Part shown: positions 22,648 to 44,264 of the stretch, in pieces | How the letters are laid out: every line of letters begins with the position of its first letter | How positions within the stretch are numbered: position 1 is the stretch's first letter | Assembly: GCF_900182605.1 (NCBI RefSeq) | Contig: NZ_FXTB01000015.1 | Location: forward strand, 1-49,241 | DNA: 49,241 nucleotides | Source: Saccharicrinis carchari | GTDB lineage: Bacteria > Bacteroidota > Bacteroidia > Bacteroidales > Marinilabiliaceae | Direction: 5' to 3' | The notes under the pieces: model-generated | Told to the model about the DNA's origin: nothing | The model's input: the letters and a program-made list of their open reading frames with translations, nothing else | The model's database searches: none | Translations under genes and position numbers: made by a program

Positions 22648-22958
22648 TTAATTATGAATGACAAAAGTTTAATTAATTATTTTATAACTGCAGCTATTTT
22701 GAGCGTTACATTGAATGAGCAAGGCGAAAAACATAGAAGTAAATTAAATTCACTATTGAGTCGAGTAAATCAACTTGAAGTATAAAATGCTGCGCTAAAA
22801 AGTCGGTTAGCTTACTACGAAACCCTAAAAGCAGTAAGCCGCCTTCTTCCGCCCCCCTCTTTCCCGTTCCATTTGGTGATCAATAACTTGCAGCAGGCCA
22901 AGGATGGCACGGTGCGTCACTCAACGGTGTGTTGTACCATTTGGGGGCGCAAGCAAAA

Positions 22959-23029
22959 AACACGCTTGTAAATAAAAGGTTTCCTTGTCGGAGTTTACGT
23001 AGCAAGGAAGCGTTATTTGCAAGGGTGTT
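22959..23029. repeat. Long imperfect palindrome (outer 17-bp arms, inner 7-bp arms)
   Basis: AACACGCTTGTAAATAA (22959-22975) pairs with TTATTTGCAAGGGTGTT (23013-23029) at 15 of 17 positions. Inside it, TTCCTTG (22981-22987) pairs perfectly with CAAGGAA (23003-23009). No T-tract follows on either strand, so it is not an obvious terminator. Confidence 0.7.
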
Positions 23030-23035
23030 GGCGGG

Positions 23036-23123
23036 GCGTTAAAAGCTCTTGGCATGGAATAGCGGAATGGAGTGACCGTTTTTCAGGTCACCTTCCGCTA
23101 AGTAATGCCAAGAGCTGTAACGC
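23036..23123. repeat. Very stable stacked palindrome, four arm pairs
   Basis: From outside to inside the pairs are GCGTTA/TAACGC (23036-23041 with 23118-23123), AGCTCTTGGCAT/ATGCCAAGAGCT (23044-23055 with 23105-23116, perfect), TAGCGGAA/TTCCGCTA (23060-23067 with 23093-23100, perfect) and GTGACC/GGTCAC (23072-23077 with 23086-23091, perfect). That is 32 paired bases over 88 nt. No T-tract follows. It could be a REP-like or MITE-like element or a folded RNA. I cannot name a family. Confidence 0.75.
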
Positions 23124-23252
23124 GAGGGGTGCCGGTGGGGGAAAGAATAGATGATGGGGAAAGGTTAAAATTTAAGCTGAAAATATTTAAACAATTTATA
23201 ATTGTATTATCATCTTCAGCTTAAAACCACCGTTAATAAATACGGTTTGAAG

Positions 23253-23280
23253 AAAAACAAGGCTAATCAGCCTTGTTTTT
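23253..23280 (-). terminator. Bidirectional intrinsic terminator
   Basis: AAAAACAAGGCT (23253-23264) is followed by AATC and then AGCCTTGTTTTT (23269-23280). This is a perfect 12-bp palindrome with A/T tracts on both sides. The stop codon of the small gene at 23263-23496 lies inside it. It can end transcription in either direction. Confidence 0.85.
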
Positions 23281-23496
23281 TATGTTCACGTAGCAAGTGT
23301 GTGTCTTGCCGAACTCGTCGGGCTGTTTCATTCTGGCAACCTCGAAGCTTAAGTACTTTTTGCCTTTGTACGCATGTGAATACTCTAGTGCGCTGTCCAA
23401 TTCTACGGTTACTTTTACAATGTCAAGATCTTGCACCTGTGTCCCCTTACCAATGTAGTTTCTGGTAAACCCGTTTTTTTCGTTTTTCTTAGTCAT
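23263..23496 (-). CDS. Small conserved-looking Bacteroidota protein, 77 aa
   Basis: The ATG at 23496-23494 opens a 77-residue protein beginning MTKKNEKNGFTRNYIGKG. It is charged, soluble and likely mainly beta: VQDLDIVKVTVEL, YKGKKYLSFEVARM, HTCYVNIKN. I have a loose memory of similar short proteins (YIGKG...DIV.V......YLSFEVA.....FG.THT.YV) in Bacteroidota accessory regions, but no established function. Its stop codon is inside a strong terminator, and an A/T-rich stretch precedes its start, so it is a self-contained transcription unit. Its position between an IS1380 insertion, palindromes and a serine recombinase suggests it belongs to a mobile segment. Confidence 0.7.
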   Translation of the reverse strand: MTKKNEKNGFTRNYIGKGTQVQDLDIVKVTVELDSALEYSHAYKGKKYLSFEVARMKQPDEFGKTHTCYVNIKNKAD

Positions 23497-23518
23497 AACT
23501 TATTTTTTTAATTAATAA

Positions 23519-24049
23519 TTACATGCAAGATGTAAGGGAAAGCAGATATGGCATCGCAACAAGCAACTGGAATACCGGAACAAAGCGAGGATATGCCGGG
23601 AAAATTGTTGGATGTGCGGAGCATCCCGGAGACCATTGCCGCAACCCTATCTTAGCCTGGAGTTTTAATTGAAAAGTTGTGACGCTAAAGAAAATGAGCA
23701 AAAGGCTGGAAAATAATACCTAAAGGGGGACGGGTAGATTCTTGTTCCTTGAAAAATTTTACCGCAGATAAACACCTGCACCAGGTTTTCGATTAGTTCG
23801 GCAAAAAACGGATGAATCACAGTGCCAGGAAACCTCCGTTTTATAAAACTATCTGAAATTAATCTCACCTTCTTTGTTTTCGCGTCTCAAAAACCAGTAT
23901 CTTTAATCCGTTTCACGGTTTTACGCTTTTTGAAACAAAATTAGCCTACAATTTACAAAAAGTGTCGATGTGTATTTTAAGCAAATTTGAAAAGCGTAGT
24001 GAAATCAAATTTGCATTTAAAATAACTATCGGTATCATTTTAATCAATT
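23519..24049. other. Gene-poor stretch upstream of the serine recombinase
   Basis: I see no gene I can support in this 530-bp stretch; short frames present on both strands have no family resemblance. It does hold inverted repeats: GTTTCA/TGAAAC (23910-23915 with 23931-23936) and the repeated GCAAATTTG listed separately. It probably carries the promoter and binding sites of the recombinase gene. Confidence 0.4.
23981..24014 (+). promoter_or_regulatory. Inverted repeat GCAAATTTG...CAAATTTGC upstream of recombinase
   Basis: Perfect 9-bp arms at 23981-23989 and 24006-24014 are separated by 16 bases, and end 35 bp before the recombinase start codon. Each arm contains the self-complementary core CAAATTTG. 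Serine resolvases commonly bind paired sites next to their own gene (res-type sites) and repress themselves there, so this is a candidate binding site. The assignment is inferred from position. Confidence 0.4.
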
Positions 24050-24628
24050 ATGAAGATAGGATACGCAAGAATTTCCACAAAAGACCAAAATTTAGAAATG
24101 CAAACCGAAGCTTTGCAAAAAGCCGGTTGCGAAAAAATATTCAAGGAAACCCAAAGTGCGGTTAAAGAGCGTCCGGAATTACAAAACATGCTCGCCCATC
24201 TCCGTAAAGGCGATGTGCTCGTTGTATGGAAACTCGATCGGCTTGGCCGCTCCCTCAAACATCTGATTGACCTGGTTACCGGTTTTCGGGAAAAGGGGAT
24301 CGAGTTCGTCAGTCTCAACGACAGCATCGACACCACCACCGTCCAGGGCCGACTGACTTTTAACATCTTTGCCAGCTTTGCCGAATTTGAACGGGAGCTG
24401 ATCCGGGAACGCACCATGGCTGGTCTGCAGGCTGCCCGCGAACGCGGTCGAATAGGTGGCCGCAAAAAGGGATTGTCGCCCGAAGCCAAAAGAACGGCTT
24501 ATGCATGTTATCAATTATGGGAAGATAAATCCAGAACGATATCCGAAATACTGAAAATTGTTAATGTGAGCAGGGCGACGTTTTATAGGTATATTGCATG
24601 GGTGAAGGAGCAACACGAAAAGAAGTAG
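24050..24628 (+). CDS. Serine site-specific recombinase (resolvase/invertase family)
   Basis: The 192-residue protein is full length for small serine recombinases. It has the catalytic serine S9 in GYARISTKDQ. The arginine motif WKLDRLGRSLKHLIDLV (about 62-78) follows. The dimer-helix region contains FNIFASFAEFERELIRERT. The C-terminal helix-turn-helix is TISEILKIVNVSRATFYRYI (about 163-182). All active-site positions I can compare with gamma-delta resolvase are present, so it is probably active. It is followed by AT-rich cargo and then by a truncated second copy at 26455-26961. It could resolve cointegrates, invert DNA, or move the cargo. Confidence 0.92.
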   Translation: MKIGYARISTKDQNLEMQTEALQKAGCEKIFKETQSAVKERPELQNMLAHLRKGDVLVVWKLDRLGRSLKHLIDLVTGFREKGIEFVSLNDSIDTTTVQGRLTFNIFASFAEFERELIRERTMAGLQAARERGRIGGRKKGLSPEAKRTAYACYQLWEDKSRTISEILKIVNVSRATFYRYIAWVKEQHEKK

Positions 24629-24708
24629 CATAAATATTTCTTGGATTATTTTGTATGCAATCTACTGTTAGATTTGTCCATACAAAAAACACTATTAGTT
24701 TAAGTTAT

Positions 24709-24774
24709 GTGAACATATTTTTTATATTTGAAGTGATATGTTTATAACAAAAAACAAAGAAGATGTATGTTCAC
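24709..24774. repeat. Inverted repeat GTGAACATA...TATGTTCAC
   Basis: Perfect 9-bp arms at 24709-24717 and 24766-24774 lie between the recombinase and the first cargo gene. A second perfect 9-bp pair, TTTTGTATG/CATACAAAA, lies just before it (24649-24657 with 24679-24687) and may end the recombinase transcript. Their role is unknown; they mark the left edge of the cargo. Confidence 0.45.
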
Positions 24775-24869
24775 TCTGCAACATATAACAAACGTTGCGC
24801 CTAATTTTAGACACCTGACATCCAATATACTTTCAAGTATCAATAACATCGCTTAAATAGAGATAAATA

Positions 24870-25616
24870 ATGGATTATAAATTAGAGGCCTATTCAATAG
24901 TCGGAATTATTATTCTAATTGCAGGTTTACTTAGACTATATCTATATTACAAGAAATTTAATATATCTATTTTATCCTTTATTGCACCCGGAGAAATAAC
25001 AACTATTTTCTTTGATAATTTATTGTATTTTTTTTGCTTTACTGGCCTTAACGTTTTAATTATTACTTTTTTTTATGATGGTATACTAAATCAAATTAGT
25101 GCATATACAGATTTGAATTTTTGGAATCGTCTACATCAGATTGGTTTTTTCAATATCAGCAAGTTGATATCGGTTGTTATATTTATAATAATTCTTTTTC
25201 TTATCTATAAATGGTCTTCTAAAATCTACTTTTATGAATATGTGTTGTGGACTTTGCTTATATTAATTGCAATGTATTTGAATCCATTAATAATTATTGA
25301 AACTGAAATTTTACTTTTAATTAATAAGATTGAATTAAGTCAATTGTCACTATTTTTTCTAATTGCATCTTTCAATTTAATTGCGTTTGCTTCATTTTCC
25401 GGGTTAAATGAAGCCTATAAAGTAAAAAAGAAGAATTACTATTTAAATGTAGAATTAAATATTCAAGATATTGGAATAATTGTTTCAAGTAAGTCTAAAT
25501 ATTTCATTGGAAAGACTAATCGTTTTGTTTTTATTTACACTTCAGAGAAAGAAGAAACTGAAGTAATACCGATTGATAGTATTATAAGCATGAAATTTGT
25601 GAATAGAAAAAACTAA
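24870..25616 (+). CDS. Hypothetical polytopic membrane protein, 248 aa
   Basis: The protein has about five hydrophobic segments in residues 8-175 (for example SIVGIIILIAGLLRLYLYY, GLNVLIITFFYDG and LISVVIFIIILFLIYKW). It ends in a soluble tail of about 65 residues with a KSKYFIGKTNRFVFIYTSEK stretch. I recognise no family. Base composition is strikingly AT-rich compared with the glycan locus, and it lies between two related recombinase copies, which suggests acquired cargo. The ATG start follows an A-rich leader, as usual for Bacteroidota. The next gene begins 50 bp later and may be co-transcribed. A membrane effector or sensor role is possible but not supported by a motif. Confidence 0.7.
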   Translation: MDYKLEAYSIVGIIILIAGLLRLYLYYKKFNISILSFIAPGEITTIFFDNLLYFFCFTGLNVLIITFFYDGILNQISAYTDLNFWNRLHQIGFFNISKLISVVIFIIILFLIYKWSSKIYFYEYVLWTLLILIAMYLNPLIIIETEILLLINKIELSQLSLFFLIASFNLIAFASFSGLNEAYKVKKKNYYLNVELNIQDIGIIVSSKSKYFIGKTNRFVFIYTSEKEETEVIPIDSIISMKFVNRKN

Positions 25617-25666
25617 GCACAATCGAATTCTAAGTCCTAATTTTAGTCTCACCAAACGCACAATAT

Positions 25667-26152
25667 ATGCTCACAATAAATGAAGCACGTTATGATTATA
25701 TCTCCTTTTTAAAAGAGAAACATTTATTAATTACTGAATATATACCTTGTGAAATACTTAGTAAAAAGCGATACAATAAATTTAATTTATCAAACGCCAA
25801 TATTACGTTCTGCTATGGTAAAAAAAGACTATTGCTTGAATTAGAAGACTTAGATATATATTTTATTTTACTAAATGAGGAACTGAATCTTTCGTCAGGC
25901 TATCCTGATAATATAAATATGAATTTTAATAATAGTTGGGGGTTTTGGTACGATAAAAAAAAAGAATGCTACCGTCTTGCAAAGAAAGCTCATATTAATA
26001 TAAATAATGAAGCCCCTTACTATACAGCGATTAGGGCTAGTCAATATGTTATATTTTTTGATTGTTTAAAAATCCATTTTAGTACACCTTATATGGAGCA
26101 TAAAAATTACAATAAGATTGTATCCGAAAGACTAAAAATTGAAGGTAAGTGA
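25667..26152 (+). CDS. Hypothetical soluble protein, 161 aa
   Basis: The protein has no signal peptide or membrane helix. It is rich in Lys, Asn, Ile and Tyr, with blocks such as YDYISFLKEKHLLITEYIP, LLELEDLDIYFILLNEELN and a NNSWGFWYDKKKECYRLAKK stretch. I recognise no family and see no catalytic motif. It follows the membrane protein gene by 50 bp on the same strand and shares its strong AT bias, so the two may form a unit of foreign origin held between the recombinase copies. Confidence 0.65.
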   Translation: MLTINEARYDYISFLKEKHLLITEYIPCEILSKKRYNKFNLSNANITFCYGKKRLLLELEDLDIYFILLNEELNLSSGYPDNINMNFNNSWGFWYDKKKECYRLAKKAHININNEAPYYTAIRASQYVIFFDCLKIHFSTPYMEHKNYNKIVSERLKIEGK

Positions 26153-26310
26153 GAAGTAATTATTTCAGAAACTGAAAAAATAATGACAAACTTAAGTCTC
26201 CCAAAACCCTCCTAAAATATTCATTTATAGTCCTTCTTCCCGGTCCAAAGCCGCCATTGGTGCACTTATAGCTTATTAACTGGCTTCGCCATCTTGCCAG
26301 TAAGTAACTT

Positions 26311-26329
26311 CCTGCCTGTGGCAGGCAGG
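26311..26329. repeat. REP-like palindrome CCTGCCTG-TGG-CAGGCAGG
   Basis: Perfect 8-bp GC-rich arms flank three bases in an otherwise AT-rich gap of about 300 bp (26153-26454) that holds no gene. A weaker pair CTGGC/GCCAG lies just before it (about 26280-26300). Short palindromes of this CCTGCC..GGCAGG type are dispersed in many Bacteroidota genomes. This one lies immediately upstream of the truncated recombinase copy. Confidence 0.6.
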
Positions 26330-26454
26330 TCATTTCGGTTCAAATTGTGCCAGTAGTTTAGACTTGGCCTTTATAAAAATGTTGTGGTTTAGGAATTAAA
26401 TCATGTATTTGCTAATATTAAATTTGACCACCTACTCCCTTAAACTTCTGGTTA

Positions 26455-26961
26455 CGTAAAATATACAAAGAAACCCAAAGTGCCGTAAAGGAACGTCCGG
26501 AATTACAAAACATGCTCGCCCATCTCCACCAGGGTGATATTGTAGTAGTTTGGAAACTGGACTGGCTTGGCCGCTCCCTCAAACATCTGATTGACTTGGT
26601 CACCGGTTTCCGGGAAAAAGGAATCGAGTTCGTCAGTCTCAACGACAGCATCGACACCACCACTGTCCAGGGCCGATTAACCTTTAACATCTTCGCCAAC
26701 TTTGCCGAATTTGAACGCGAACTAATCCGGGAACGCACCATGGCTGGTCTGCAGGCCGCCCGAGAACGTGGCCGCATAGGTGGCCGTAAAAAGGGATTAT
26801 CCCCGGAAGCCAAAAGAACGGCTTTTGCATGTTATCAGTTATGGGAGGATAAATCCAGAACGATATCGGAGATACTGAAAATTGTTAAAGTGAGCAGGGC
26901 TACTTTTTACAGGTATATTGCCTGGGTGAAGGAGCAGAATGGGAAGAAGAAAAGGGTATGA
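26455..26961 (+). pseudogene. 5'-truncated second serine recombinase
   Basis: From the codons RKIYKETQSAV onward this is nearly the same protein as the recombinase at 24050-24628, in the same orientation. The first 28 residues, including the catalytic serine, are missing. Sequence before 26455 is unrelated. In addition the LDRLGRS active-site motif reads LDWLGRS, losing an arginine that matters in gamma-delta resolvase. The frame from the first internal ATG (26512) is open to the stop, so a 149-residue fragment could still be made, but it cannot be catalytic. It may keep DNA-binding activity through the intact C-terminal helix-turn-helix. Confidence 0.85.
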
Positions 26962-27109
26962 AAGAGTTACAGGGTTCCAAACTCAAGGGAATATAAACAA
27001 AACCTACAATAAATATATATATAAAATGATTTGCTTACCTTTAGCGTTCATGTTATGAAATAGGCATCTATTAATCCAGAATTAACACCTTATAATTCGG
27101 CAAATAATA

Positions 27110-28237
27110 ATGGAAGTAATCTTTATCAGTGGAATATTTTTGTCATTCTTTATTGCCTTTTTGTTATTGACAAAAAAGCAAAAGGCATTAACAGATAAAA
27201 TTTTGGCTATTTGGCTTACCGTTATCGGTATTCATCTGTTGGGTTATTATTATAATCAGATAGGATACTGGGAGATTTATCCACACCTTATTGGAACCAC
27301 TGCTCCGTTTCCCTTACTTCACGGCCCCTTATTATTTTTATACACGCTCTATTCCTTGCGTAACGACCGGAAAGTGCGGACGATAGATTATCTGCATTTT
27401 ACTCCGGTGCTGGTAGCATATTTATACATGTCTAACTTTTTTTTCTTTTATACCGCAAAAGAAAAAAAGATGTTGGATAGAGGAGAAATAGCAGATTTCA
27501 GCGTTTTTGCATTGATTTTGCTGGTCGTAATTCTAATTTCAGGCATAAGCTACTCTGTTCTTACATATCGACTTACTATCCGGCACCAACATAAAATAAA
27601 CAAATATTTTTCTTATAATGAAGGAATTAGCATTAAATGGTTGCATAATTGTATTCTGAGTATCGGACTAGTCTTTTTGTCTGCAACAGTAATTATTGTA
27701 TCACGCGATGCGTTTGGAGTTCAGTTTTCATTTAATGCCGATTATATTATTTATCTGATCATCATCGGATTTGTATTTTATATCGGATATTTTGGCATTA
27801 AGCAAGAAAATATTTTCACAAACAATCCAATACCCAAAAATTTAAGTGAAGAAAAACCTGAACTGATCGAAAAATATAAGAATTCTGGTATCGGAAAGGA
27901 TAATGCAACTAAGTTGTATAAAAAATTGCTAAACATTTTGGTTGAAGAAAAGCCTTATCTTGACCCCAAACTCAGTTTGTCTGGATTAGCTCAACTACTG
28001 GAAATTTCGCCAAATCAGCTTTCGCAGATAATCAATCAGGAAGCACAGGTTAATTTTCATGATTTTATAAATAACTATCGCGTTGAAGAATTTATACATA
28101 AAGCCAACAAAAACAAAAAATTTAGCTTACTCGCTTTAGCACTTGATTCAGGATTTAATTCCAAATCATCTTTCAACAATATTTTCAAAAAGCTAAAAGG
28201 ATTAACGCCTTCCCAATACTTGTCAAAACAGTTGTAG
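27110..28237 (+). CDS. Membrane-anchored AraC-family transcriptional regulator
   Basis: The 375-residue protein has an N-terminal membrane domain of about seven helices (about 1-230: for example VIFISGIFLSFFIAFLLLT and ADYIIYLIIIGFVFYIGYFG). A short linker and a C-terminal AraC-type double helix-turn-helix follow (about 275-375: LSLSGLAQLLEISPNQLSQI, then LALDSGFNSKSSFNNIFKKL and GLTPSQYL). The family is common in Bacteroidota, where 7TM-AraC proteins are thought to sense a ligand at the membrane and act directly on DNA. Target genes are unknown. The nearest co-oriented functional genes start beyond an IS fossil, so linkage to the receptor cluster is uncertain. Confidence 0.88.
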   Translation: MEVIFISGIFLSFFIAFLLLTKKQKALTDKILAIWLTVIGIHLLGYYYNQIGYWEIYPHLIGTTAPFPLLHGPLLFLYTLYSLRNDRKVRTIDYLHFTPVLVAYLYMSNFFFFYTAKEKKMLDRGEIADFSVFALILLVVILISGISYSVLTYRLTIRHQHKINKYFSYNEGISIKWLHNCILSIGLVFLSATVIIVSRDAFGVQFSFNADYIIYLIIIGFVFYIGYFGIKQENIFTNNPIPKNLSEEKPELIEKYKNSGIGKDNATKLYKKLLNILVEEKPYLDPKLSLSGLAQLLEISPNQLSQIINQEAQVNFHDFINNYRVEEFIHKANKNKKFSLLALALDSGFNSKSSFNNIFKKLKGLTPSQYLSKQL

Positions 28238-28279
28238 GAAAATATCGAAGTTGATTTATTTGCTTGATTCGTTATTCTT

Positions 28280-28310
28280 GGTCTGACCAGTAAGGTAGAC
28301 CTCATTTTTT
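28280..28310 (+). terminator. Intrinsic terminator after the AraC-type gene
   Basis: GGTCT-GACC (28280-28288) pairs with GGT-AGACC (28294-28301), with one bulged base and an AGTAA loop. TCATTTTTT follows. It lies 43 bp after the stop codon of the regulator gene. Confidence 0.6.
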
Positions 28311-28389
28311 GATCCAAATCTTATTCAAAACGAATACTTAAGTATTGAGTATTTTATTTAATCTTGACATTAATTAGAGTTTGCTGATT

Positions 28390-28597
28390 ATGGCAGGAAA
28401 ACCTAAAAGAATGAGCCAAGAGCAAATACTACAACAGCACAACCAAGGGCACGGAAACAAGACCATAGGCCGTAATTTGAACATCAGCAAGAACACGGTC
28501 AAGAGTTACCTTAAGAAATACAGAAGTTCGAAAATAAGTCTTTCCACGTTGCTTAAGATGGAAGACCATGTGCTTGAAAAAGTCACGTTCACTCAGA
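28390..28597 (+). pseudogene. IS21-family istA 5' fragment
   Basis: The ATG at 28390 opens MAGKPKRMSQEQILQQHNQG, then a helix-turn-helix IGRNLNISKNTVKSYLKKY and the SLSTLLKMEDHVLEK segment. This is the N-terminal DNA-binding part of an IstA transposase. The resemblance ends around 28597, where sequence of an unrelated transposase begins. No integrase core follows. It is a remnant, probably made by insertion or deletion between two IS elements. Confidence 0.7.
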
Positions 28598-29236
28598 TCG
28601 GGCAACCGATGGGTTATTTTGGCTCATAAAATCCCATGCGATCCTTTGGTGAGCATATATCAAAAGCAAATGGGCAACGGCAAAACCGGTACGGGCGGCA
28701 TCAACCCGCGTGTTATGGTGGGTGCCTTTATCATAGAACACATGTGCGATCTGAACGATCGGGAAGCTGTACTTCAGATACAGGAGAACATGCATATGCA
28801 GTACCTGCTGGGCTCGGTAGCAAATACAAACAAAGGTTTGGGTTTTATCCCCGGGAAGTATTGGCCGATAAAATATACTGTACACGAGCGAACCGTAAAA
28901 AGCTCAAGGAACTCGGCATAGGGCTCCAGGCTAAACCGCTGGGAAGGGCAAAGGCGGTGGGTGTGGAACACGTAAGACTGGGCGAAAGGAATCCCATCGA
29001 AGACAAGTGGACAAGCCAAAACAGCTTACGGAGTGAACAGGATAAGAGCAAGGCTCCCAAATACCAGCGAATCCTGGATAGCCACAATAATACTGATACT
29101 GAACCTGGTCAAACTGGCTGGGGAGGTATCACTTGCCCCAACTTTTTCAGCACAGTGGATGGCGGGAATGATGAAAGAAACTTTGAGAATCATATTAAAA
29201 TGTTCGCCAGAGAATTGTAAAATGCAATTAACTTAA
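28598..29236 (+). pseudogene. IS1182/IS5-like transposase remnant with deletion and frameshifts
   Basis: Three frames carry consecutive pieces of one transposase. The first has HKIPCDPLVSIYQKQMGNGK and VMVGAFIIEHMCDLNDREAV up to MQYLLG (about 28625-28815). The second has FGFYPREVLADKIYCTRANR and AKPLGRAKAV up to NPIEDK (about 28820-29010). The third has GQAKTAYGVNRIRARLPN and LILNLVKLAGE (about 29012-29236). The step from the first to the second piece skips the central domain with the first catalytic aspartate, so there is a large internal deletion. A frameshift separates the second and third. It cannot code for an active transposase. Confidence 0.75.
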
Positions 29237-31576: not shown

Positions 31577-32135
31577 GTAACCATTCGATAAGTTTATTAC
31601 ATATATATGCCCTGAAAGTAGTACAACTGCAAGCAGTATTGGATCTTAAAAAAATGTTTTTAGCTCAATGTATTCAAGAAATATTCTTAAGTGTTCTATC
31701 GTTCATGAGTTTGGTGTTCGATATTTTTCATTTGATGAATTTGCCGCAAGATAAAAGTCAGCTGAAATTATGAGAGCCTATAATGATAATTTCTTGTGTA
31801 TTATTGAAACAGAGGTCTGTTTCATGAAGAGTAAGATACTAACATTTGAAAGGGATTATTTCATTACGGAAATGCAACTCGAAAATATTTTTGAATTTAG
31901 AAGAAAAAACATCAAAATGAACTGAATATCTATGAATTTACAACTAAACTTTATGTTGAAGCTAAAAAAGATTCAATAATCATACAGTCCTAAGGAAAGA
32001 ACTAAAGTACTGTTATGCTGACGCATATGCGTACAAACTTATATGTTTGGACACCTTTTTAGTCTATACTTATAAGTTTGGGCGATTGCCTTTAGCATTT
32101 GGTTTTACTTTGCTCTAAACAATCCATTAAAAACT
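31577..32135 (+). other. Decayed coding debris upstream of the CPBP-receptor fusion gene
   Basis: No intact gene is supported. A short frame at 31770-31925 (51 codons, MRAYNDNFLCIIETEVCFMK) and another at 31573-31773 in a different frame look like frameshifted continuations of the lipoprotein pseudogene. The last 200 bp before 32136 should contain the promoter of the six-gene cluster that starts there; I could not place a -7/-33 pair with confidence. Confidence 0.35.
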
Positions 32136-35100
32136 ATGAGTACGGTAGAGCAAGAAAATCAAATTATCAAGAAATACAAAAGCCCGTTTTCTTTTTATCT
32201 TTTATCCTTGGTAATCCCATGGTTCTTGTGGTTTATTGGTGCTTATTTAAGTCATAAAACGCCCTATTCTTCAACCTTAGAATGGGTAACAGGAATAATC
32301 ATTTTTGCAGGTTTACTTGCCCCGGTAATCATTGCACTTTATTTTATGCTACCCGACAAAGAACTCAGAAAAGATTTCTTAGGTCGTTTTTTCAATTTCA
32401 GAAGTATAAAACGTGAATATATTCTGTTGACTTTTTTTCTGATGCTGCTTAGCATTCTGGCAGCTCAGGCTATATCCTTGTTTTTTGGATACCCTGTCTG
32501 TCAGTTTGAACTTAGAGGTTCATTTACCTTTACCTCTGCCCTGTTTCCTGTTTGGTTTTTGTTGATTATATCCCCCATGCTTGAGGAGTTGGCATGGCAC
32601 TCTTACGGGACCGACAGTCTGGTTTCGCGTTTTAACTTGTTTAATGCCTCGCTGATATTTGCCATTTATTGGGCATTCTGGCATTTCCCCTTATCGTTTA
32701 TTAAAGACTACTACCATAGTAACCTAGTAGAATCGGGCACACTCTATTCCATCAATTTTGTAGTAAGTTTGATTCCCTTTGTTTTAATTATGAACTGGTT
32801 GTATTACAAAACGAACAGAAATATTTTACTGGTCATCGTCTTTCATATTTCCGCCGGAATTTTTAATGAGATTTTTGCTACGCATCCGATGAGTAAAGTC
32901 ATCCAAACGGGTTTGTTATCGCTATTTGCATACTATATTATTACCAATGACAAACCATTCTTTTTCTCAAAAGAGTCAAAATCAACAAACAGAAAAGTCA
33001 ACACTATTTCAGCTCTTAAGAGTATCAAATCCGGCTTTAGGGTTTTCATTCTTGGTGTTTTTCTGTTAGGAACTTCAATAGGTATACCGGCTCAGGAAAT
33101 CACACAAACCATTAGCGGGAAAGTATTTGACGATATGACTAATGAGTCGTTACCCTTTGCCACCATTGTTGCAAAAAGTAGTGATCCACTCATTGGAACG
33201 GTTACCGATACAGAAGGAAATTTTGTTCTAGAAAATATAACAGTGGGGCGCCAAGCCATATCTATTTCAATGATTGGGTACGACACCTATGAAATTAAAG
33301 AGATAATGGTTGGTTCGGGTCAAATTATTAATTTGAATATTGGAATGAACCAAAGCAGTACCGGACTTGATGAAGTAGTAGTTCGCGTGAATAAATCAAC
33401 AGCCTTAAACAGCATGGCCACCGTAAGCAGCCGTCAGTTTACTGTAGAAGAAACCCAGCGTTATGCCGGAGGAATGGACGATCCTGCACGCTTGGCATCA
33501 TCGTTTGCCGGGGTATCCAATCCGTCCATCAGCGACAATGGAATTTCTATACGCGGCAATAATCCCGACGGGCTCTTGTGGCGTATCGAAGGTGTTGAAG
33601 TACCTAATCCAAACCACTTTGCCAACCTTACCATAGCCGGTGGTGGCTTAATGTCGGCCATCAGTAATCAAGTGATGGGTAATAGCGACTTTTTCACGGG
33701 AGCTTTTCCTGCTGAATATGGAAATGCTTCTTCGGGTGTGTTCGATATAAAATTACGTGAAGGGAATCGCAACAAAAAACAATATGCATTCGAAGCCGGA
33801 ATTTTAGGTGTTGGGGCAATGGCACAAGGGCCTATGGCAAAAAACTCCGATGCTTCCTATATTGTGAATTACCGTAATTCAACGATGGCGCTGCTTGCCC
33901 CACTTCTTCCCAGTGATGCCGGTGTGTTGAAATATCAGGATCTTTCGTTCAAAACCAATTTCCCCACAAAAAAGCATGGAACATTTACCCTTTGGGGAAT
34001 TGGCATCCTTGACGGCATAATCAATGAAGCTATTGATAGCACAAGCTGGGAGTCTGATTTCGACCGCGATAACTCAAAGACTGCCATGTATATGTATGCA
34101 ACAGCCCTGTCGCATAAGATAAGTTTACCCGGTAATACATTTTTGAAAACTTCGGCCGCCTTTACAGGAGGTGGATTAGATTTTTCAGAAGAACGATTGA
34201 ATTACGACCAGGAAGCACATCCGCAATCGAAAGCGGAAAACAATACCAGCTGTATCACCCTGCAAAGTGAAATCACCAAACGTTTTAATGAAAATCACAG
34301 TAATAAATCCGGGCTTCGTTATGCGCATCACTTTTATGGTCTTGATGTGGAGGAATCTCCGGCTGAAGGAGAAATGCCTGTCCAAATTGCAAATCAAACG
34401 GGCCATACCGGATTTATTCAAGTGTTTTCGCAGTCGAAAATTAATGTAATGCCCGACCTAGTGCTAAATGCCGGTATCAATTCGCAATATTTGTTATTGA
34501 ATAAGGGATTTTCCGTCGAGCCTCGTGTTGGGGTAAAATACCGCATTAATCCGAAACACAACCTTGGCTTTGCTTATGGCATTCACAGTAGAATGGAACA
34601 GTTATCAGTTTATTTTGCTTCGGTTAACGGAAGCTCGCCCAATAAGAACCTCGATTTTACAAAATCATCGCATTATGTACTTTCATATCATACAAAAATT
34701 ACCGATGATCTGCATTTAAACATCGAGCCCTATTATCAGCAACTAAAACATGTTCCGCTGGCTCAAACAGGGTATGTCTCAACGTTGAACAATAGCAACA
34801 ATCTATTCTTTAACGATGCGCTTGTAAGCGAAGGGAAAGGGCGAAATCTTGGTATTGATCTTACACTTGAAAAGTTCTTGAGCCATGGATATTACTACAT
34901 GCTAACAGCTTCAGTCTTCGATTCAAAATATACAGGAGCTGATGATATTGAAAGAAATACCCGTTTTAATCGAAATTATGTTTTCAACCTCTTGTTCGGT
35001 AAAGAGTGGCAAATTCGACAAAACAATATTCTCAGTGCTAATATAAGGGCGAATTACCTGGGTGGCAACCGTATAGAACCTATTGATATGGAAGCATCGA

Positions 35101-35363
35101 TGCAACAACGGGACGTGGTGTATGGTGAAACCGGCCGAAATGTGGCATTTAGTAAAAAACATGACGATTTACCAGTGGTTTCGTTAACCCTTTCGTATCG
35201 GAAAAACAGGACCAAATATTCATCGGTATGGTCTCTTCAAGTATTAAATCTCAACGGTGCCAAAGAATACGCTCGGGATTTTTATAATATAAAAACCAAT
35301 ACGCTCGATACGCAGTATGATGATCTTGTAATTCCTAACATCAGCTATAAAATTGAATTTTAA
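32136..35363 (+). CDS. CPBP intramembrane protease fused to a TonB-dependent receptor
   Basis: The 1075-residue protein is a fusion. Residues 1-270 form a CPBP-family (Abi/Rce1-like) intramembrane protease with about eight helices. Motif 1 is E150-E151-x-x-W154-H155 (SPMLEELAWHSYG), where most members have Arg at the last position. Motif 2 contains H183 (AFWHFP) and motif 3 H237 with N244 (VFHISAGIFN). A polar linker (271-300) leads to a hydrophobic stretch ending in a signal-peptidase-like site (FILGVFLLGTSIGIPAQ, about 304-320). Then come a CarboxypepD_reg-like domain (about 321-410), a TonB-box-like DEVVVRVNK, a plug and a barrel ending in ISYKIEF. No methionine lies between 252 and 334, so the receptor cannot start separately at an ATG with its signal intact. 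Probably signal peptidase separates the halves; that is inference. Confidence 0.85.
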   Translation: MSTVEQENQIIKKYKSPFSFYLLSLVIPWFLWFIGAYLSHKTPYSSTLEWVTGIIIFAGLLAPVIIALYFMLPDKELRKDFLGRFFNFRSIKREYILLTFFLMLLSILAAQAISLFFGYPVCQFELRGSFTFTSALFPVWFLLIISPMLEELAWHSYGTDSLVSRFNLFNASLIFAIYWAFWHFPLSFIKDYYHSNLVESGTLYSINFVVSLIPFVLIMNWLYYKTNRNILLVIVFHISAGIFNEIFATHPMSKVIQTGLLSLFAYYIITNDKPFFFSKESKSTNRKVNTISALKSIKSGFRVFILGVFLLGTSIGIPAQEITQTISGKVFDDMTNESLPFATIVAKSSDPLIGTVTDTEGNFVLENITVGRQAISISMIGYDTYEIKEIMVGSGQIINLNIGMNQSSTGLDEVVVRVNKSTALNSMATVSSRQFTVEETQRYAGGMDDPARLASSFAGVSNPSISDNGISIRGNNPDGLLWRIEGVEVPNPNHFANLTIAGGGLMSAISNQVMGNSDFFTGAFPAEYGNASSGVFDIKLREGNRNKKQYAFEAGILGVGAMAQGPMAKNSDASYIVNYRNSTMALLAPLLPSDAGVLKYQDLSFKTNFPTKKHGTFTLWGIGILDGIINEAIDSTSWESDFDRDNSKTAMYMYATALSHKISLPGNTFLKTSAAFTGGGLDFSEERLNYDQEAHPQSKAENNTSCITLQSEITKRFNENHSNKSGLRYAHHFYGLDVEESPAEGEMPVQIANQTGHTGFIQVFSQSKINVMPDLVLNAGINSQYLLLNKGFSVEPRVGVKYRINPKHNLGFAYGIHSRMEQLSVYFASVNGSSPNKNLDFTKSSHYVLSYHTKITDDLHLNIEPYYQQLKHVPLAQTGYVSTLNNSNNLFFNDALVSEGKGRNLGIDLTLEKFLSHGYYYMLTASVFDSKYTGADDIERNTRFNRNYVFNLLFGKEWQIRQNNILSANIRANYLGGNRIEPIDMEASMQQRDVVYGETGRNVAFSKKHDDLPVVSLTLSYRKNRTKYSSVWSLQVLNLNGAKEYARDFYNIKTNTLDTQYDDLVIPNISYKIEF

Positions 35364-36220: not shown

Positions 36221-37312
36221 ATGCAATACCTATTTTCAACACTTCTATTCTTACATGGGGTAATACATTTACTAGGTTTTATAAAAGCGTTTAACTTGGT
36301 AAATATTCAACAACTTTCAGCTCCTATTTCAAAAGGTGCCGGTTTAATATGGCTATTGGTCTTTGTGTTGTTTGTTGTTTCTGGTATTACCTTTCTCACG
36401 AAACACCAATGGTGGAGCATCCTGGCTTTTCTTGCTATTATTCTTTCCACATTTCTGACCATCTTGGCTTGGAAAGACGCAAAGTTTGCAAGCATTCCCA
36501 ACCTAATCATTCTGCTTGTAGCTGCATTTTCCTTATCTCAGGTGGTTTTCAATCAAAAAATATCGAATGAAATATCGCAGCTTATTGGACAATCAGGTGG
36601 TTTTGAAACTCCAAAAGTTACAACAGAACAACTTGCTGGACTGCCATCACCTGTTGCAAAATGGTTAAAGGTTTCGGGCGTTGTGGGCAAAGAAAAAATC
36701 CATTCTGTTTGGTTGAGTCAAAAAGCCAAAATGAAAATGAAACCCGGACAGGAAAACTGGAACAGTGCAACAGCAGAACAATACATTACTGTACAAAAAC
36801 CTGCATTTGTTTGGAAAGTGAAATTGAACATGTCGCCATTTATCAAAATAACAGGTCGCGATAAGTTTGTTGACGGAAAAGGGGAAATGCAAATAAAAAT
36901 ATTTTCGCTCGTAAATATTGTAAACGAAAAAGGAGTGAAAATGGACGAAGGCACATTGCAACGCTATCTGGGCGAAATTGTGTGGTTTCCGTCTGCTGCA
37001 TTAAGCCCGTTTATTACATGGGAAGAAATAGATTCCCGCTGGGCAAAAGCAACAATGGACTACAAAGGAACAAAGGGTTCGGGGACTTTCCACTTCAACG
37101 AAAAAGGTGACTTTATTCAATACAGTACGCTACGTTACAAAGGCAACGAACCGGATGCTTTACGTTGCGAATGGGTTATTGATGTAAAGGAACATGCAGT
37201 TATAAATGGCGTGGGAATTCCCGTTAAAATGACCGCTACCTGGAAGCTGGATGAAGGCGACTGGACATGGTTGAAGCTTCAGATTGAAGACATTAAATAC
37301 AATTTAAATTAA
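36221..37312 (+). CDS. DUF6544-like protein with N-terminal membrane domain
   Basis: The 363-residue protein has four hydrophobic helices in the first 115 residues (YLFSTLLFLHGVIHLLGF, GLIWLLVFVLFVVSGITFL, ILAFLAIILSTFLTILAW and NLIILLVAAFSLSQVVF). A soluble domain of about 230 residues follows. Its LPSPVAKWLKVSGVVG start, the W-x-A-EQYITVQKPAFVWKVKL block, RDKFVDGKGEMQIKIFSLV, LQRYLGEIVWFPSAALSP and the late GTFHFNEKGDF match what I recall of DUF6544. The function of that family is unknown; a lipid- or ligand-binding beta fold is possible. It lies inside the six-gene cluster with 77 and 57 bp gaps. Confidence 0.7.
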   Translation: MQYLFSTLLFLHGVIHLLGFIKAFNLVNIQQLSAPISKGAGLIWLLVFVLFVVSGITFLTKHQWWSILAFLAIILSTFLTILAWKDAKFASIPNLIILLVAAFSLSQVVFNQKISNEISQLIGQSGGFETPKVTTEQLAGLPSPVAKWLKVSGVVGKEKIHSVWLSQKAKMKMKPGQENWNSATAEQYITVQKPAFVWKVKLNMSPFIKITGRDKFVDGKGEMQIKIFSLVNIVNEKGVKMDEGTLQRYLGEIVWFPSAALSPFITWEEIDSRWAKATMDYKGTKGSGTFHFNEKGDFIQYSTLRYKGNEPDALRCEWVIDVKEHAVINGVGIPVKMTATWKLDEGDWTWLKLQIEDIKYNLN

Positions 37313-38646: not shown

Positions 38647-41007
38647 ATGGAAAAAACATTGCAAATATTAATATGGATGAGTTGTGTAAGCTATTGTTGC
38701 GAGGCACAAAACCCAACGCAAACCATTCGAGGACAGGTTTTGGATGCAGAAACACGTGAAAAGCTTCCGGGTGCGCATATTGTTTTAGTTGAAAACCAAA
38801 AGAGTACAATCACCGACGTAGAGGGGAAGTTTTCTATCGAGAACATCCCTACTGGTCGTTATTCAATACAATTAAGCTTTATCGGATATCAGCCTGTAGT
38901 TATCCCGGAAATATTGGTTTCATCGGCAAAAGAAGTGGTATTGGAAATTAAAATGGAGATTGTGCCTTCCAAATTGGATGAAGTTGTTGTAAAACCTACT
39001 GTGCGCAAAGACCGCCCCGTTAATAGTATGGCAAGTGTTAGCGCCCGCACTTTTTCGGTGGAGGAAGCCAGTCGTTATGCAGGTGCGCTTGACGACCCCG
39101 GACGAATGGCAGGTAATTTTGCAGGCGTTACAACAGCAGGTGTAAATGTGAATGCAATTGTTGTGCGCGGAAATTCTCCCAAAGGATTGTTGTGGAGACT
39201 CGAAGGTGTTGATATTCCTGTGCCCAGTCATTTTTCGGGTTCCAATGTTACCGGAGGGGGTGGACTTACCATATTTAGCAGTCAGCTTTTGGCAAACTCT
39301 GATTTTTATACCGGAGCATTTCCTGCGGAGTTTGGAAATGCAAGCGCAGGTGTTTTCGACATGAAACTGCGAAACGGAAATAACAGCAAAAAGGAATATG
39401 CCGCTCAAGTTGGTGTGCAAGGAGTTGAATTTGCCGCAGAGGGTCCTGTTAAAACCGGATACGATGGTTCTTATCTTTTTAATTACCGCTATTCGACCAT
39501 GGCCTTAATTTTCCCCCTATTACCCGAAACAAAAAATACTAACGAATTACCCATTTACCAGGATTTATCTTTTAAATTAAATCTGCCGACAAAGAATGCT
39601 GGAACATTCGCATTGTGGGGAATTGGCGGTCTTAGTAAAAGTACCATGAAGGGGTTTGACGATAGAAAGAAATGGATTTATCCCGAAAACCGTGTTAAAA
39701 TGAATTTCCATTATAACATGGGAGCGGCAGGAATTACACACTCCGTAAGGACTTCGCCAAAAGCGTTTGTTAAATCAAGCCTGGCATTTAATGCCAACCA
39801 ACATACTTACCATAAAATGTCGCGTTTACAAGAATCAAATCCTCCTCAACTATTCCCATTATACAATGTGGACATAACAAACAGGGCTGCCATTTTATCT
39901 TCAATAATTTCACATGCAGCCACTCCAAGGATTTCTTTTAAAACAGGTTTTAACGTCAAGCGGCTTAATTATGAGATGGTGGGTGATGCGCTGGATTATC
40001 AAACTAATATTTTAAATAGCTTAATGGATGGGAAAGGAAATAGTTGGCTAATCAATGCTCATTTTCAGGGGAAATATAATGTGAGTCCAAAAACATCAAT
40101 TATAGCTGGAGCAAATATCTCATGGTTAGAAATGAATAAGGAAATGAGGATTGAACCACGATTATCCACAACTTGGCTGGCAGCTCCCAAGCACAGCTTT
40201 TCGGTGGGCCACGGGTTTCACAGCCAAACAGAACCGCTTTTTGTCTATTTTGTTACGAAAACTGATGAGCAAACTGGCCAGGTTTCTTACCCAAACCAAA
40301 ACTTGAACAGAATGAGGGCACATCACTTTATATTGGCTTATGATTGGTCGATAACTGATAATACACACCTTAAAATAGAACCTTATTTTCAATTCCTTAA
40401 TAAGATTCCGGTAGTTGACGGTACATCCTACTCAATGATAAATTTCTTAAGCGACTGGACATTCAATAAAGCGCTGGTAAATCAAGGTAAAGGAATAAAT
40501 AAAGGAGTTGACTTCACCTTTGAGCGTTTTCTGAAAGACGGATATTATTTAATGACAACGGCATCAATTTACAAATCAGAATATATCGGTGGCGACTATG
40601 TTAAACAGCATACCCGCTACGATGGTGCTTATGTGCTGAATGTGTTAGGTGGAAAGGAATGGGAAATTAGGAAAAAAAATTTATTAGGCATGAATATGAA
40701 ATTTACTTTTATGGGACCCTATTGGTACCTTCCTGTGGATGAAATGAAAACCCAATTGGCAGAAGATATTATTTATGATGAAACAGAGGGATTTACAGAC
40801 CGCTTTTCAAATCTGGAAAGTATTACCGATTTAACATTAAATTATCGAATTAACAGGCAAAATGTTTCATCGGTATTTAAACTACAAGTGCGAAATTTAA
40901 TAGGACAGCAATATCAAGGTAAAAGATACAACCTTAAAAACAATACCGTTGAAAACCACTTTTTTACAAGCTTAGTGCCTTTTGTTAGCTATAAAATTGA
41001 GTTTTAA
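38647..41007 (+). CDS. TonB-dependent receptor, paralogue of the fused receptor
   Basis: The 786-residue protein has a signal peptide (about 1-20, ending CCEAQ), a CarboxypepD_reg-like domain (about 25-110: TIRGQVLDAETREKLPGAHI), a TonB-box-like KLDEVVVKP, a plug and a beta-barrel ending in the same VSYKIEF strand as the fused receptor. The plug blocks are clearly related to those of 32136-35363: RYAGALDDPGRMAGNFAGV against RYAGGMDDPARLASSFAGV, and FYTGAFPAEFGNASAGVFD against FFTGAFPAEYGNASSGVFD. It lacks the CPBP domain. The substrate is unknown. It starts 47 bp after the HExxH gene and ends 12 bp before the PUA-like gene. Confidence 0.9.
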   Translation: MEKTLQILIWMSCVSYCCEAQNPTQTIRGQVLDAETREKLPGAHIVLVENQKSTITDVEGKFSIENIPTGRYSIQLSFIGYQPVVIPEILVSSAKEVVLEIKMEIVPSKLDEVVVKPTVRKDRPVNSMASVSARTFSVEEASRYAGALDDPGRMAGNFAGVTTAGVNVNAIVVRGNSPKGLLWRLEGVDIPVPSHFSGSNVTGGGGLTIFSSQLLANSDFYTGAFPAEFGNASAGVFDMKLRNGNNSKKEYAAQVGVQGVEFAAEGPVKTGYDGSYLFNYRYSTMALIFPLLPETKNTNELPIYQDLSFKLNLPTKNAGTFALWGIGGLSKSTMKGFDDRKKWIYPENRVKMNFHYNMGAAGITHSVRTSPKAFVKSSLAFNANQHTYHKMSRLQESNPPQLFPLYNVDITNRAAILSSIISHAATPRISFKTGFNVKRLNYEMVGDALDYQTNILNSLMDGKGNSWLINAHFQGKYNVSPKTSIIAGANISWLEMNKEMRIEPRLSTTWLAAPKHSFSVGHGFHSQTEPLFVYFVTKTDEQTGQVSYPNQNLNRMRAHHFILAYDWSITDNTHLKIEPYFQFLNKIPVVDGTSYSMINFLSDWTFNKALVNQGKGINKGVDFTFERFLKDGYYLMTTASIYKSEYIGGDYVKQHTRYDGAYVLNVLGGKEWEIRKKNLLGMNMKFTFMGPYWYLPVDEMKTQLAEDIIYDETEGFTDRFSNLESITDLTLNYRINRQNVSSVFKLQVRNLIGQQYQGKRYNLKNNTVENHFFTSLVPFVSYKIEF

Positions 41008-41019
41008 TAAAATCATATC

Positions 41020-41487
41020 ATGGACAATGTAGTGTATCTTGATTCAAAGGCCAAGGAGCTGGAGAATATAATAAATGGAAAGAAAAAGATGATTATTCGT
41101 GGAGCCATGGGGCGGAAATTGCCTTATGGTCGCGTGAATAAAGACGATGTTTTGTTTTTCATTGAAAACAAAGGAGATGGACTTGTGAAAGAGAAGGCCA
41201 TTGTTGATAATGTGTTCAATTCGGAAAAGTTAACAGAGGAGCAATCCATTGAACTTGTTGAGCAAAATCAGGATGAATTACTATTAAACCCAGAGCTAAA
41301 AAGAAGATTTTCGGGTAAAAGATATTTGGTTTTAATAACAATGAAGGATTTTGAAAAAATTGAAGAATTCAAAATTGACAGGTCTCAATATGGAAATTTG
41401 GACGATTGGTTACCTGTTGGGAATATCGAAAAAGTAAAATGTCAGGAAGAAAATTTTTGGATTTGTCATCATCATAACCTTATATAA
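41020..41487 (+). CDS. PUA/ASCH-like domain protein, 155 aa
   Basis: The small soluble protein shows an OB/PUA-type layout: KKMIIRGAMGRKLPYGRVNK, DDVLFFIENKGDGLVKEKAIV, then FSGKRYLVLITMKDFEKIEE and a C-terminal IDRSQYGNLDDWLPVGNIE. I recall a family of uncharacterised proteins with this RG..GRK.PYGRV...D...FI.N.G.GLV..KA pattern, which resembles ASCH/PUA-like RNA- or nucleotide-binding domains. The function is unknown. It begins only 12 bp after the receptor gene, so it is probably the last gene of the cluster, although a cytoplasmic nucleic-acid-binding protein is an odd partner for receptors. Confidence 0.65.
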   Translation: MDNVVYLDSKAKELENIINGKKKMIIRGAMGRKLPYGRVNKDDVLFFIENKGDGLVKEKAIVDNVFNSEKLTEEQSIELVEQNQDELLLNPELKRRFSGKRYLVLITMKDFEKIEEFKIDRSQYGNLDDWLPVGNIEKVKCQEENFWICHHHNLI

Positions 41488-41678
41488 ATGTAGACGTGAA
41501 CTCAATTATTAGGTCCCACGAAACCATTGGACATGGACAGACTGAAAGCGTAAAAAAAGATGTAATTCCTATATTCAAAAATATACAAATGCTGGATACT
41601 GTATAATAACCAATAGAGACTATGGCATCTCTACAAAAATAATGATCAAGGTTTTATGAATGCAAAAAAGCGAGAAAA

Positions 41679-44063
41679 ATGGCAGAAACAGGTAAAGTTA
41701 GTATAAAGACGATAATCGTTATGGGTTTATTGCTAATTTCAGGAATTAACATGATGTCAGAACAGCATCAGTTTGTCATACATGGAAAATTAAAAGATAA
41801 ATCTACCAAATTGCCAATAGAGTTTGCTACTATAGCTATTGGGTGCTCTAAAAATGATTCAATAGTTACATCAATGATAAGTGATTCAAAAGGAGACTTT
41901 GTTTGTAATGTAGCTCCGGGCCAATATGAAATTAGCATTAGATGTCTGGGATATAAACCAATTGGAAAAACTATTCATGTTTATAAACAAGACATCCACC
42001 TGAAACCTTTTAATATGGTAATTGATAATAATGCTCTTGAAGAAGTTAATGTTATTGCTTCAAGTTACAATGAACAATTCGATAAAAGCATTCAAAACAT
42101 CACCAAACAGTTCAAGGAAGGCACTAGCAACGTAAGCGATTTATTGGCTAAAATAAGAGGTGTCGATATAGACCCTTTAGATAATTCAATACGAGTTGAC
42201 AATCAGAAAAATGCACTTCTATTGGTAAATGGTGCAAAAAAGGAACAAAAGTATATTAAGAATTTGTCCCCCGATAGGATAAGTAGAATTGAGATATCCA
42301 GAAACCCTACAGGCAGATATATCAGTGAAGGCTATACGTCTGTCATCAATATTATACTGAAAAAAAACTATACGGGTTATGATTTGCACCTTGAAGAAAA
42401 AGGAATCTATTCACTCGATAAGTCAAACGGCGATGATTTTTTATTCAGCAACCTTGCTTCGGTTGATTTAACTTATACCTTTAAAAAGGTTAACATATAC
42501 GGTTCGTATACCAACATGAAAGCAAATACAAATTTGTTTGTAAAGAATATAAAGATTCTAGAGGAGAGTAAGCTCGTTAAAGAGCCAGTTACAAGCAGCC
42601 CAAATTCAAAGCGTGACGGTTTCTTGCATACTTATCTTTTAGGGGCAGATATTTTCATATCGCCTAAGCAAACAATAAGCCTTGAAACCAATATTATACA
42701 ATCACCAATTGAAAAAAATAATACAGCCAGAACGTATAATAATGCTTTGAGCTCTTTAGAGAGTACTGAGGTGTTTACTTCAATATTAACAACAAACCAA
42801 TCTGATAAAGAATATTATTCCCAATTAACTTATAGAAATAGATTTTCAGAAAAAAACAAATTGGAATTAGATTATAGCTACAATTTTACCGAATCTGAAC
42901 TATTGAATAATTATATAGAAGACACCGGGACTGAAACGAAACAAAAACTAATTTCTAATCGAACATCTTCTATAGTAGATTTGAATTTTAAGCACCTGTT
43001 TAATGATACATATACTATGGAGGGGGGCTATAAAAATACATATCGCAGCTATGATTATGAATATTTATCATTAATGCAAGAGCCTAATATAGAAGTAAAT
43101 AAAGACATCAGGAATCTTATCTATACTTACTTTAGTTTTACCCCCGAAGGGAAGATTAAAACTAAAATAGGAATTGCTGTTGAGCAAAATATATTGAAGG
43201 CAAACAATAAGTCAAATTATAACTATTCGCCACAACCGTTCTTTAGTCTATGTTATAAGCGTAATAGAAACCTGAATGTTACATTAAAGATTAATTCGGA
43301 TAGCCGGTATCCTTATACAAAACAAGTAAGTCCCAATGAGCTTACTATCGATAGACTTAGCAGCGAGATTGGAATTCCAAACCTCAACTATTCTACTAGA
43401 TATGTTAGTTCATTGGATTTTAAGCTTTTAAAAAACAGCCTAAGCATCGAACCATTTTATATCTATACGAATAACTATATCTCCAAAACAGGAGACATAA
43501 AGGATGACCATTTTAAATATAGCTATTCAAATTTAGATAAATATGAATCGTATGGACTAAAGATGAGTGCCAAGCTATTCATTGTACCTAAAAAAATATC
43601 TTTTAATCTAACAGCTTCTCTTTATAAAGATAAGACGGAATTTGGCAATCATACTAATGATCTAACAGACTATACCATGAACGTTAATATTATGTACTTA
43701 TCGTCAAAGCACAAAACCATATATGCCATGACATTGAAAAGAATGAATGCAAAGCAAATTCAAGCTTATGGATATTATAACAATGACAATGACCATATAG
43801 GTTGCATTGTTAGACAGCCATTCTTTCAACAGAAAATGGCTGTAACTTTCCTTTATCTTCTACCTGTTTCTTCAGGGTTGGATTATTCGATGAATAGCTA
43901 TTTTGAACACAGCTCGTTTAGAGAACAATCAACAACAAATGTTGGAATGCTAAAAAATCTATTTATGGTTAATCTTTCATTCAACCTTAACAAAGGCAAT
44001 GAAATTAAGTCTGTCGAGAAGAGAAATTACAAGGAAAAGCGAATGACAAAAGGCTTTTTTTAA
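41679..44063 (+). CDS. TonB-dependent receptor-like outer-membrane protein (OMP_b-brl_3 type)
   Basis: The 794-residue protein has an N-terminal hydrophobic signal (about 10-28, TIIVMGLLLISGINMM) and a CarboxypepD_reg-like domain (about 30-112, HGKLKDKSTKLPIEFATIAI). LEEVNVIAS follows, then a plug-like domain with DLLAKIRGVDIDP, LLLVNGAKKEQ and IEISRNPTGRY, and a large C-terminal beta-barrel. This is the OMP_b-brl_3 (PF14905) architecture, in which transport substrates are mostly unknown. The codon use is more AT-rich than in the other two receptors. It starts 191 bp after the PUA-like gene and is followed by two peptidase-like genes, suggesting a link to peptide processing or uptake. Confidence 0.82.
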   Translation: MAETGKVSIKTIIVMGLLLISGINMMSEQHQFVIHGKLKDKSTKLPIEFATIAIGCSKNDSIVTSMISDSKGDFVCNVAPGQYEISIRCLGYKPIGKTIHVYKQDIHLKPFNMVIDNNALEEVNVIASSYNEQFDKSIQNITKQFKEGTSNVSDLLAKIRGVDIDPLDNSIRVDNQKNALLLVNGAKKEQKYIKNLSPDRISRIEISRNPTGRYISEGYTSVINIILKKNYTGYDLHLEEKGIYSLDKSNGDDFLFSNLASVDLTYTFKKVNIYGSYTNMKANTNLFVKNIKILEESKLVKEPVTSSPNSKRDGFLHTYLLGADIFISPKQTISLETNIIQSPIEKNNTARTYNNALSSLESTEVFTSILTTNQSDKEYYSQLTYRNRFSEKNKLELDYSYNFTESELLNNYIEDTGTETKQKLISNRTSSIVDLNFKHLFNDTYTMEGGYKNTYRSYDYEYLSLMQEPNIEVNKDIRNLIYTYFSFTPEGKIKTKIGIAVEQNILKANNKSNYNYSPQPFFSLCYKRNRNLNVTLKINSDSRYPYTKQVSPNELTIDRLSSEIGIPNLNYSTRYVSSLDFKLLKNSLSIEPFYIYTNNYISKTGDIKDDHFKYSYSNLDKYESYGLKMSAKLFIVPKKISFNLTASLYKDKTEFGNHTNDLTDYTMNVNIMYLSSKHKTIYAMTLKRMNAKQIQAYGYYNNDNDHIGCIVRQPFFQQKMAVTFLYLLPVSSGLDYSMNSYFEHSSFREQSTTNVGMLKNLFMVNLSFNLNKGNEIKSVEKRNYKEKRMTKGFF

Positions 44064-44264
44064 TTCAGATCATTGGCCGACTAAATAAAAGATCTTCCTG
44101 ATTTCGAGCAGGTAGAAAGAGAAGTGATGCGCTAACATAACAATTTTGACTTAAATGAAAAGTAAATAAAAATGCTAATTTTGGTTAAATTGAAGGTTGT
44201 CTGTTGCTTTTTCGGCAGCTTTCCTTACACAAAACCATTACCTGCAAACTAAAAAAAGTTAATT

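Follow-up and report, generated by a model that had tools for sequence, protein, structure and literature searches.

In the window (i.e., the whole analysed stretch of 49,241 nucleotides from Saccharicrinis carchari), positions 32136–35363 of the forward strand form a single ATG-started open reading frame of 1075 codons, which runs without internal stop from an inner-membrane protease into an outer-membrane receptor and thus agrees with the uninterrupted frame reported in the initial annotation of this DNA. The frame begins with a CPBP/Rce1-type intramembrane protease half (residues 1–280, 32136–32975; recognised by Pfam, phmmer, conserved residues and a predicted model) and passes into a Lys/Arg-rich linker (residues 278–296, 32967–33023), in or near the equivalent of which alignments place the stop codons of homologous CPBP genes. 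The linker leads into a signal-peptide-like segment (residues 297–319, IKSGFRVFILGVFLLGTSIGIPA, 33024–33092; delineated by sequence and alignments), followed by the mature receptor half with its CarboxypepD_reg-like domain, plug and beta-barrel (residues 320–1075 plus the stop codon, 33093–35363; from Pfam, a predicted model and Foldseek). Both halves named in the initial annotation were recovered independently by Pfam, by predicted folds and by orthologues.

A gene for an AraC-type regulator whose N-terminal half is hydrophobic (27110–28237, forward strand; Pfam and locus comparison) lies 3.9 kb from the fused gene, and transposase remnants in two frames are found between both genes (28568–29220, forward strand; DUF772 above and DDE_Tnp_1_2 just below the Pfam cut-off). 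A DDE transposase gene is located at 21337–22641, and two resolvase genes at 24050–24628 and 26512–26961, the second without the start of its domain. By its sequence, the region 21337–29220 is thus one of mobile-element traces. Upstream of the fused gene, 32046–32080 carries TTTG and TAnnTTTG boxes with a spacing of 23 bases, which resemble the Bacteroidota promoter; another TAnnTTTG is present at 32764, inside the protease. On the same strand after the fused gene, 38647–47127 encodes a paralogous receptor, an OMP_b-brl_3 barrel protein, a DUF5700 putative peptidase and an S41 peptidase. The paralogous receptor (38647–41007) is 41% identical by sequence comparison and has its own ATG and a signal-peptide-like N-terminus. 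Further away, on the reverse strand (14832–19625), a SusD-like gene adjoins a SusC-like receptor gene, as in a polysaccharide utilisation locus.

The protease half gave an Rce1-like Pfam match at residues 135–239 (E 3.7e-10), and its predicted structure (pLDDT 88.6) contains eight long helices between residues 17 and 271. The best fold match of this model was MmRce1 (4cad; E 8.3e-16, TM 0.92 on the target), four chains of which rank first among the fold matches, and phmmer aligned residues 12–279 with the same protein (E 5e-53). Moreover, E150, E151, H183 and H237 were invariant in all 77 aligned proteins, window protein included, after three of 79 relatives (L047, L079 and L110) had been dropped as truncated. 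Model and conservation together uphold the eight-helix CPBP protease with these four residues that had initially been proposed. The His in place of Arg in motif 1, also remarked upon at that stage, is real but not special to the window protein, since His155 occurs in 76 of the 77 proteins and should therefore be seen as a subfamily trait; the window protein does not have the EExxxR form.

Since the Rce1 fold, the Rce1-like Pfam match and the Glu-Glu, His and His residues are all present, we refer to this half as an Rce1-type fold of a variant subfamily. It shares with MmRce1 the eight-helix fold and these residues, but differs from it in that motif 1 reads EExxxH instead of EExxxR, in that a Gly stands opposite (in the sequence alignment) the Asn that follows the third-motif His in 4cad and has a role there, in scoring 200.6 against the NCBIfam cut-off of 425 for MmRce1, and in that its C-terminus continues into a receptor. 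The codon comparison with the L044 protease (dS 1.28, dN 0.11, 225 codons) indicates strong constraint on the protease half, whose proteolytic activity is putative from sequence and model.

In the receptor half, a CarbopepD_reg_2 match was obtained at residues 326–416 (E 6e-19), while Pfam Plug was reached only at E 0.063, so that the receptor assignment rests on fold and orthologues. The model of residues 297–1075 (779 aa; pLDDT 86.6, pTM 0.85) yielded 403 Foldseek matches in the PDB at E 0.001 or better, led by FptA (1xkw, E 2.5e-26), FpvA and PirA; among the 50 matches listed, all were TonB-dependent receptors or their complexes. The CarboxypepD_reg/plug/barrel receptor of the initial annotation was thus recovered, with the plug as its weakest element, and fold and orthologues suggest that this half would work like a TonB-dependent receptor. 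It resembles TonB-dependent receptors with an N-terminal CarboxypepD_reg-like domain in both fold and domain content, and is ca. 52–58% identical to the closest receptors that come after a CPBP gene. Unlike these, it has neither an N-terminal start codon nor a signal peptide of its own: a Sec signal peptide at its own N-terminus was not found, and the signal-like segment is internal.

Scrutiny of the join agreed with two further initial claims, i.e., that a normal internal start is absent and that a hydrophobic signal-like segment with GIPAQ is present. Codons 263–333 contain no ATG, GTG or TTG, and the next Met after this gap is Met334 (33135), inside the CarboxypepD_reg-like domain. GIPAQ is located at residues 316–320, and residues 297–319 have the composition of a signal peptide, with a presumed cleavage site between A319 and Q320. 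Q320 aligns with the Gln after the signal peptide in all 15 of the closest orthologous receptors, whose signal peptides comprise 19 or 20 residues before this Gln (counted from the second ATG in L032, which has an N-terminal extension). In the window protein, 23 residues precede Q320 when counted from residue 297 and 20 when counted from residue 300. Depending on gap placement, the start ATG of homologous receptors corresponds to window codon 297 (ATC) or 300 (GGC).

When relatives were compared, protease and receptor turned out to be two separate genes in 22 of 22 other loci with both halves, with the protease first in 19 and the receptor first in three (L037, L039 and L088, where the upstream receptor has its own stop). 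This set includes L072, with a weakly matching receptor at a distance of 2.6 kb, the loci L041 and L083, which end within the receptor, and the near-copies L040 and L065; in a 23rd locus (L123) the halves are separate as well. Once 21 duplicates had been removed, 92 distinct loci remained (window included), of which 85 allowed the end of the protease to be read. In all 84 of these other than the window, the protease stops no earlier than 1 residue before the equivalent of residue 280 and no later than 49 residues after it. Only the window protease runs on, by 795 residues. Four of the remaining seven distinct loci run off their contig, two are decayed fragments and one (L039) also stops. The initial annotation had itself named homologues with the two halves always in separate genes as one outcome that would speak against its reading. 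Since that is what was found, and no other fused case exists among the 84 other readable distinct loci, a conserved fusion architecture was rejected; among the genomes examined the halves are fused only here.

Broader searches retrieved 74 loci in a genome-contig scan (which may lack own-genome records), and among 60 relatives in a whole-protein search both halves in two (G011 and G027). The protease subfamily is present in 3 of 71 genomes of the family, 14 of 393 of the order, 1 of 395 of the class and 8 of 395 of the phylum, these sets overlapping and each including the own genome, and it is absent from 8 of 8 congeners. All protease matches outside the own genome sit in open frames of 88–462 codons. 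The longest frame, L126, encodes a distant CPBP protein (28–29% identical) with a C-terminal extension of ca. 210 residues that gave no receptor match; it was left out of the 84-locus count of protease ends. A plasmid search returned matches in 37 of 72,556 records, none over 80% of the query.

In the protease tree (branch supports not considered), the window protein sits beside L042, L043, L044 and L114–L116, for which no adjacent receptor was found, the L044 contig ending too soon; the wider group (L030, L105 and L033) does have an adjacent receptor. L044, at 82% the nearest intact relative by protease, was discarded as a guide to the join because its contig breaks off at residue 225 and its genome yielded no close receptor, so that it says nothing on this point.

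Several of the loci with separate genes share a common arrangement, i.e., genes for an AraC regulator that is likewise hydrophobic in its N-terminal half, a CPBP protease and a TonB receptor, in the same order and on the same strand (L030–L036, L040, L041, L046, L054, L065, L130 and L131). Compared with this cassette in other Bacteroidota, in which the genes are separate and the AraC gene is directly upstream, the window differs in having protease and receptor fused and the AraC gene at a distance. Protease and receptor of the cassette occur in either order, often a few bases apart. In a tally of 99 locus rows, from which six own or duplicate rows had been excluded while other duplicates were retained, 84 rows had enough upstream sequence, and 26 of these showed an AraC gene within 4 kb. 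On the downstream side, a receptor was present within the same distance in 18 of the 86 rows with enough sequence. Most members of the protease subfamily are thus without these partners. A DUF6544/DUF6920 protein is encoded downstream of the fused gene (36221–37312) and also directly after the protease in L101 (2459–3553) and L103 (6515–7348), and may for that reason belong to the same gene set. Our literature search found no description of an AraC-CPBP-receptor cassette, nor one combining CPBP, TonB-dependent receptor and fusion. We infer that the receptor might sense or import a ligand, with either the AraC protein or this ligand as the target of the protease.

The unfused pairs give an indication of how the two genes could have become joined. 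The distance from protease stop to receptor ATG in 11 such pairs is 1, 1, 1, 11, 12, 13 and 33 bases in seven, 3 bases in L130 and 180 bases in L054, with a four-base overlap in L083 and an uncertain value in L032, which has three possible ATGs. The receptor is further off in L012, L036, L038, L040, L063, L065 and L090. In L130, the closest locus within the family, the sequence TFKSI-stop-IMKRV aligns in the same frame and without gaps back from Q320 with ALKSIKSGFRV of the window protein, which sets the L130 TGA against window codon 298 (AAA) and the L130 ATG against codon 300 (GGC). In the 12 bases just upstream, 10 agree between L130 and the window, a number reached by 0.0016 of 20000 shuffles. 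When a three-residue gap is allowed, the old start would instead be at ATC 297, with ATC AAA (codons 297–298) aligning with ATG AAA; one gapped alignment, however, took the window protein cut at residue 297 and is biased toward that position. I297 as a certain relic of the start was consequently withdrawn, the gap-free L130 register favouring GGC 300. We make no choice between both registers, as stop and start have been lost in either.

Because the genes are separate in relatives and the L130 stop and ATG fall on two sense codons of the window, the fusion appears to be a lineage-specific one of tandem genes. Specifically, CPBP and receptor genes lying in tandem and in the same frame would have become one gene by loss of the first stop and the second ATG. 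The fused gene is real and uncommon, and is best explained as such a stop-loss fusion. Together with cleavage of the resulting polyprotein by signal peptidase, this is the explanation of our first choice, which we consider somewhat more probable than all others combined.

An error of sequencing or assembly that joined two separate genes would also produce a fusion known, as this one is, from the assembled sequence of a single genome. Nevertheless, one wrong base would be insufficient, as stop and start are both missing with further differences around them, and homology reaches nearly up to the join from either side. A single-indel error in particular was rejected because the flanks share the same frame and both stop and start are gone. 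With an assembly of 31 contigs, 99.97% complete and 0.13% contaminated, we regard an artefact as very improbable. Two overlapping products, with the receptor also or mainly started in frame at ATC 297 (33024) or ATT 291 (33006), would agree with the gapped alignment to ATG AAA of other receptors, and both near-cognate codons are on the start list of translation table 11. Against such an internal start are the lack of the regular start codons in this stretch, the gap-free register with its old start at GGC 300, and the weakness of near-cognate starts in E. coli, so that this reading appears unlikely, albeit less so than an artefact.

The second choice after the working polyprotein is a decaying locus, in which chance loss of the stop was accompanied by loss of the receptor start, the receptor half is non-functional and its intact frame reflects a recent event. 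Besides the window being the only fused case found, this would fit the lack of the protease in its congeners, the transposase remnants between AraC and CPBP genes, and the decayed remnants seen for two close protease sequences. The latter are L103 (5031–7348), with an AraC gene without its end, protease residues 87–238 and a DUF6544-like fragment, and L098 (6010–6598), with protease residues 129–245 and, in a different frame, a short piece of the receptor. Moreover, the receptor half of the window has 13 unique departures from otherwise invariant columns (one being the lost Met), with 10 in the next of 16 sequences, and again 13 in a second set of 13 sequences, with 11 and 11 in the next two. 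The ratio of receptor to protease branch length was also highest in the window (1.70, against 0.58–1.33 in 12 others), and departures and ratio together suggest that constraint on the receptor half may have eased. On the other hand, all 756 receptor codons are intact up to the usual C-terminus, where 3% neutral substitution would leave them stop-free with a probability of ca. 0.05, and the departures are conservative in many cases, with S to D, D to G and one missing Gly among the exceptions. Furthermore, if the gap-free L130 register is right, the start region carries many substitutions, which would make the fusion not very recent. Decay therefore seems to us rather unlikely, although less so than an internal start.

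Returning to the working polyprotein, translation would start at 32136, and the eight-helix protease would insert in the inner membrane. Both ends of Rce1 proteins are cytoplasmic, and the Lys/Arg-rich linker agrees with a cytoplasmic C-terminus of the protease. Residues ca. 297–319 would then initiate export of the remainder as an internal signal sequence, which Sec could read as it would at an N-terminus, and signal peptidase I would subsequently cut after Ala319. The protease would stay in the inner membrane, perhaps with a ninth helix, while the freed receptor, with the usual mature N-terminal Gln, would be bound for the outer membrane. The topology initially proposed to let signal peptidase free the receptor is in line with the predicted helices and the linker.

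A natural counterpart for such a product is FbcH of Bradyrhizobium japonicum, a cytochrome b/c1 polyprotein cut by signal peptidase, and by analogy a polyprotein cut after Ala319 would be the most likely product here. As in FbcH, a multi-spanning inner-membrane protein is followed in one frame by an exported protein, with a signal-like segment linking them. In contrast, the FbcH products stay in one complex and their processing was shown experimentally, whereas the window protein, with its predicted processing, would yield an outer-membrane receptor as its second product and results from a fusion that is not conserved. We thus liken it to an FbcH-type polyprotein without filing it as a member, its cleavage into two proteins being putative. 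As to the one-to-one synthesis that the initial annotation expected from this architecture, the separate genes of relatives still fit a lineage-specific polyprotein, but do not point to long-term selection for such synthesis. A tentative and rather doubtful proposal goes further: the gene would encode a fixed, working natural polyprotein, whose separation by signal peptidase supplies both partners of a signalling or uptake cassette in a one-to-one ratio, and its protease half might even have the signal helix left next to it as a target.

A decaying locus would represent an ordinary fusion of genes through stop loss. Should the fused gene be functional, it would show that the tail of an eight-helix membrane protein can give rise to an exported outer-membrane receptor, and protease and receptor would be marked as partners. 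The AraC-CPBP-receptor cassette is the more general and better lead than the fusion itself, and hints at an envelope pathway of Bacteroidota.
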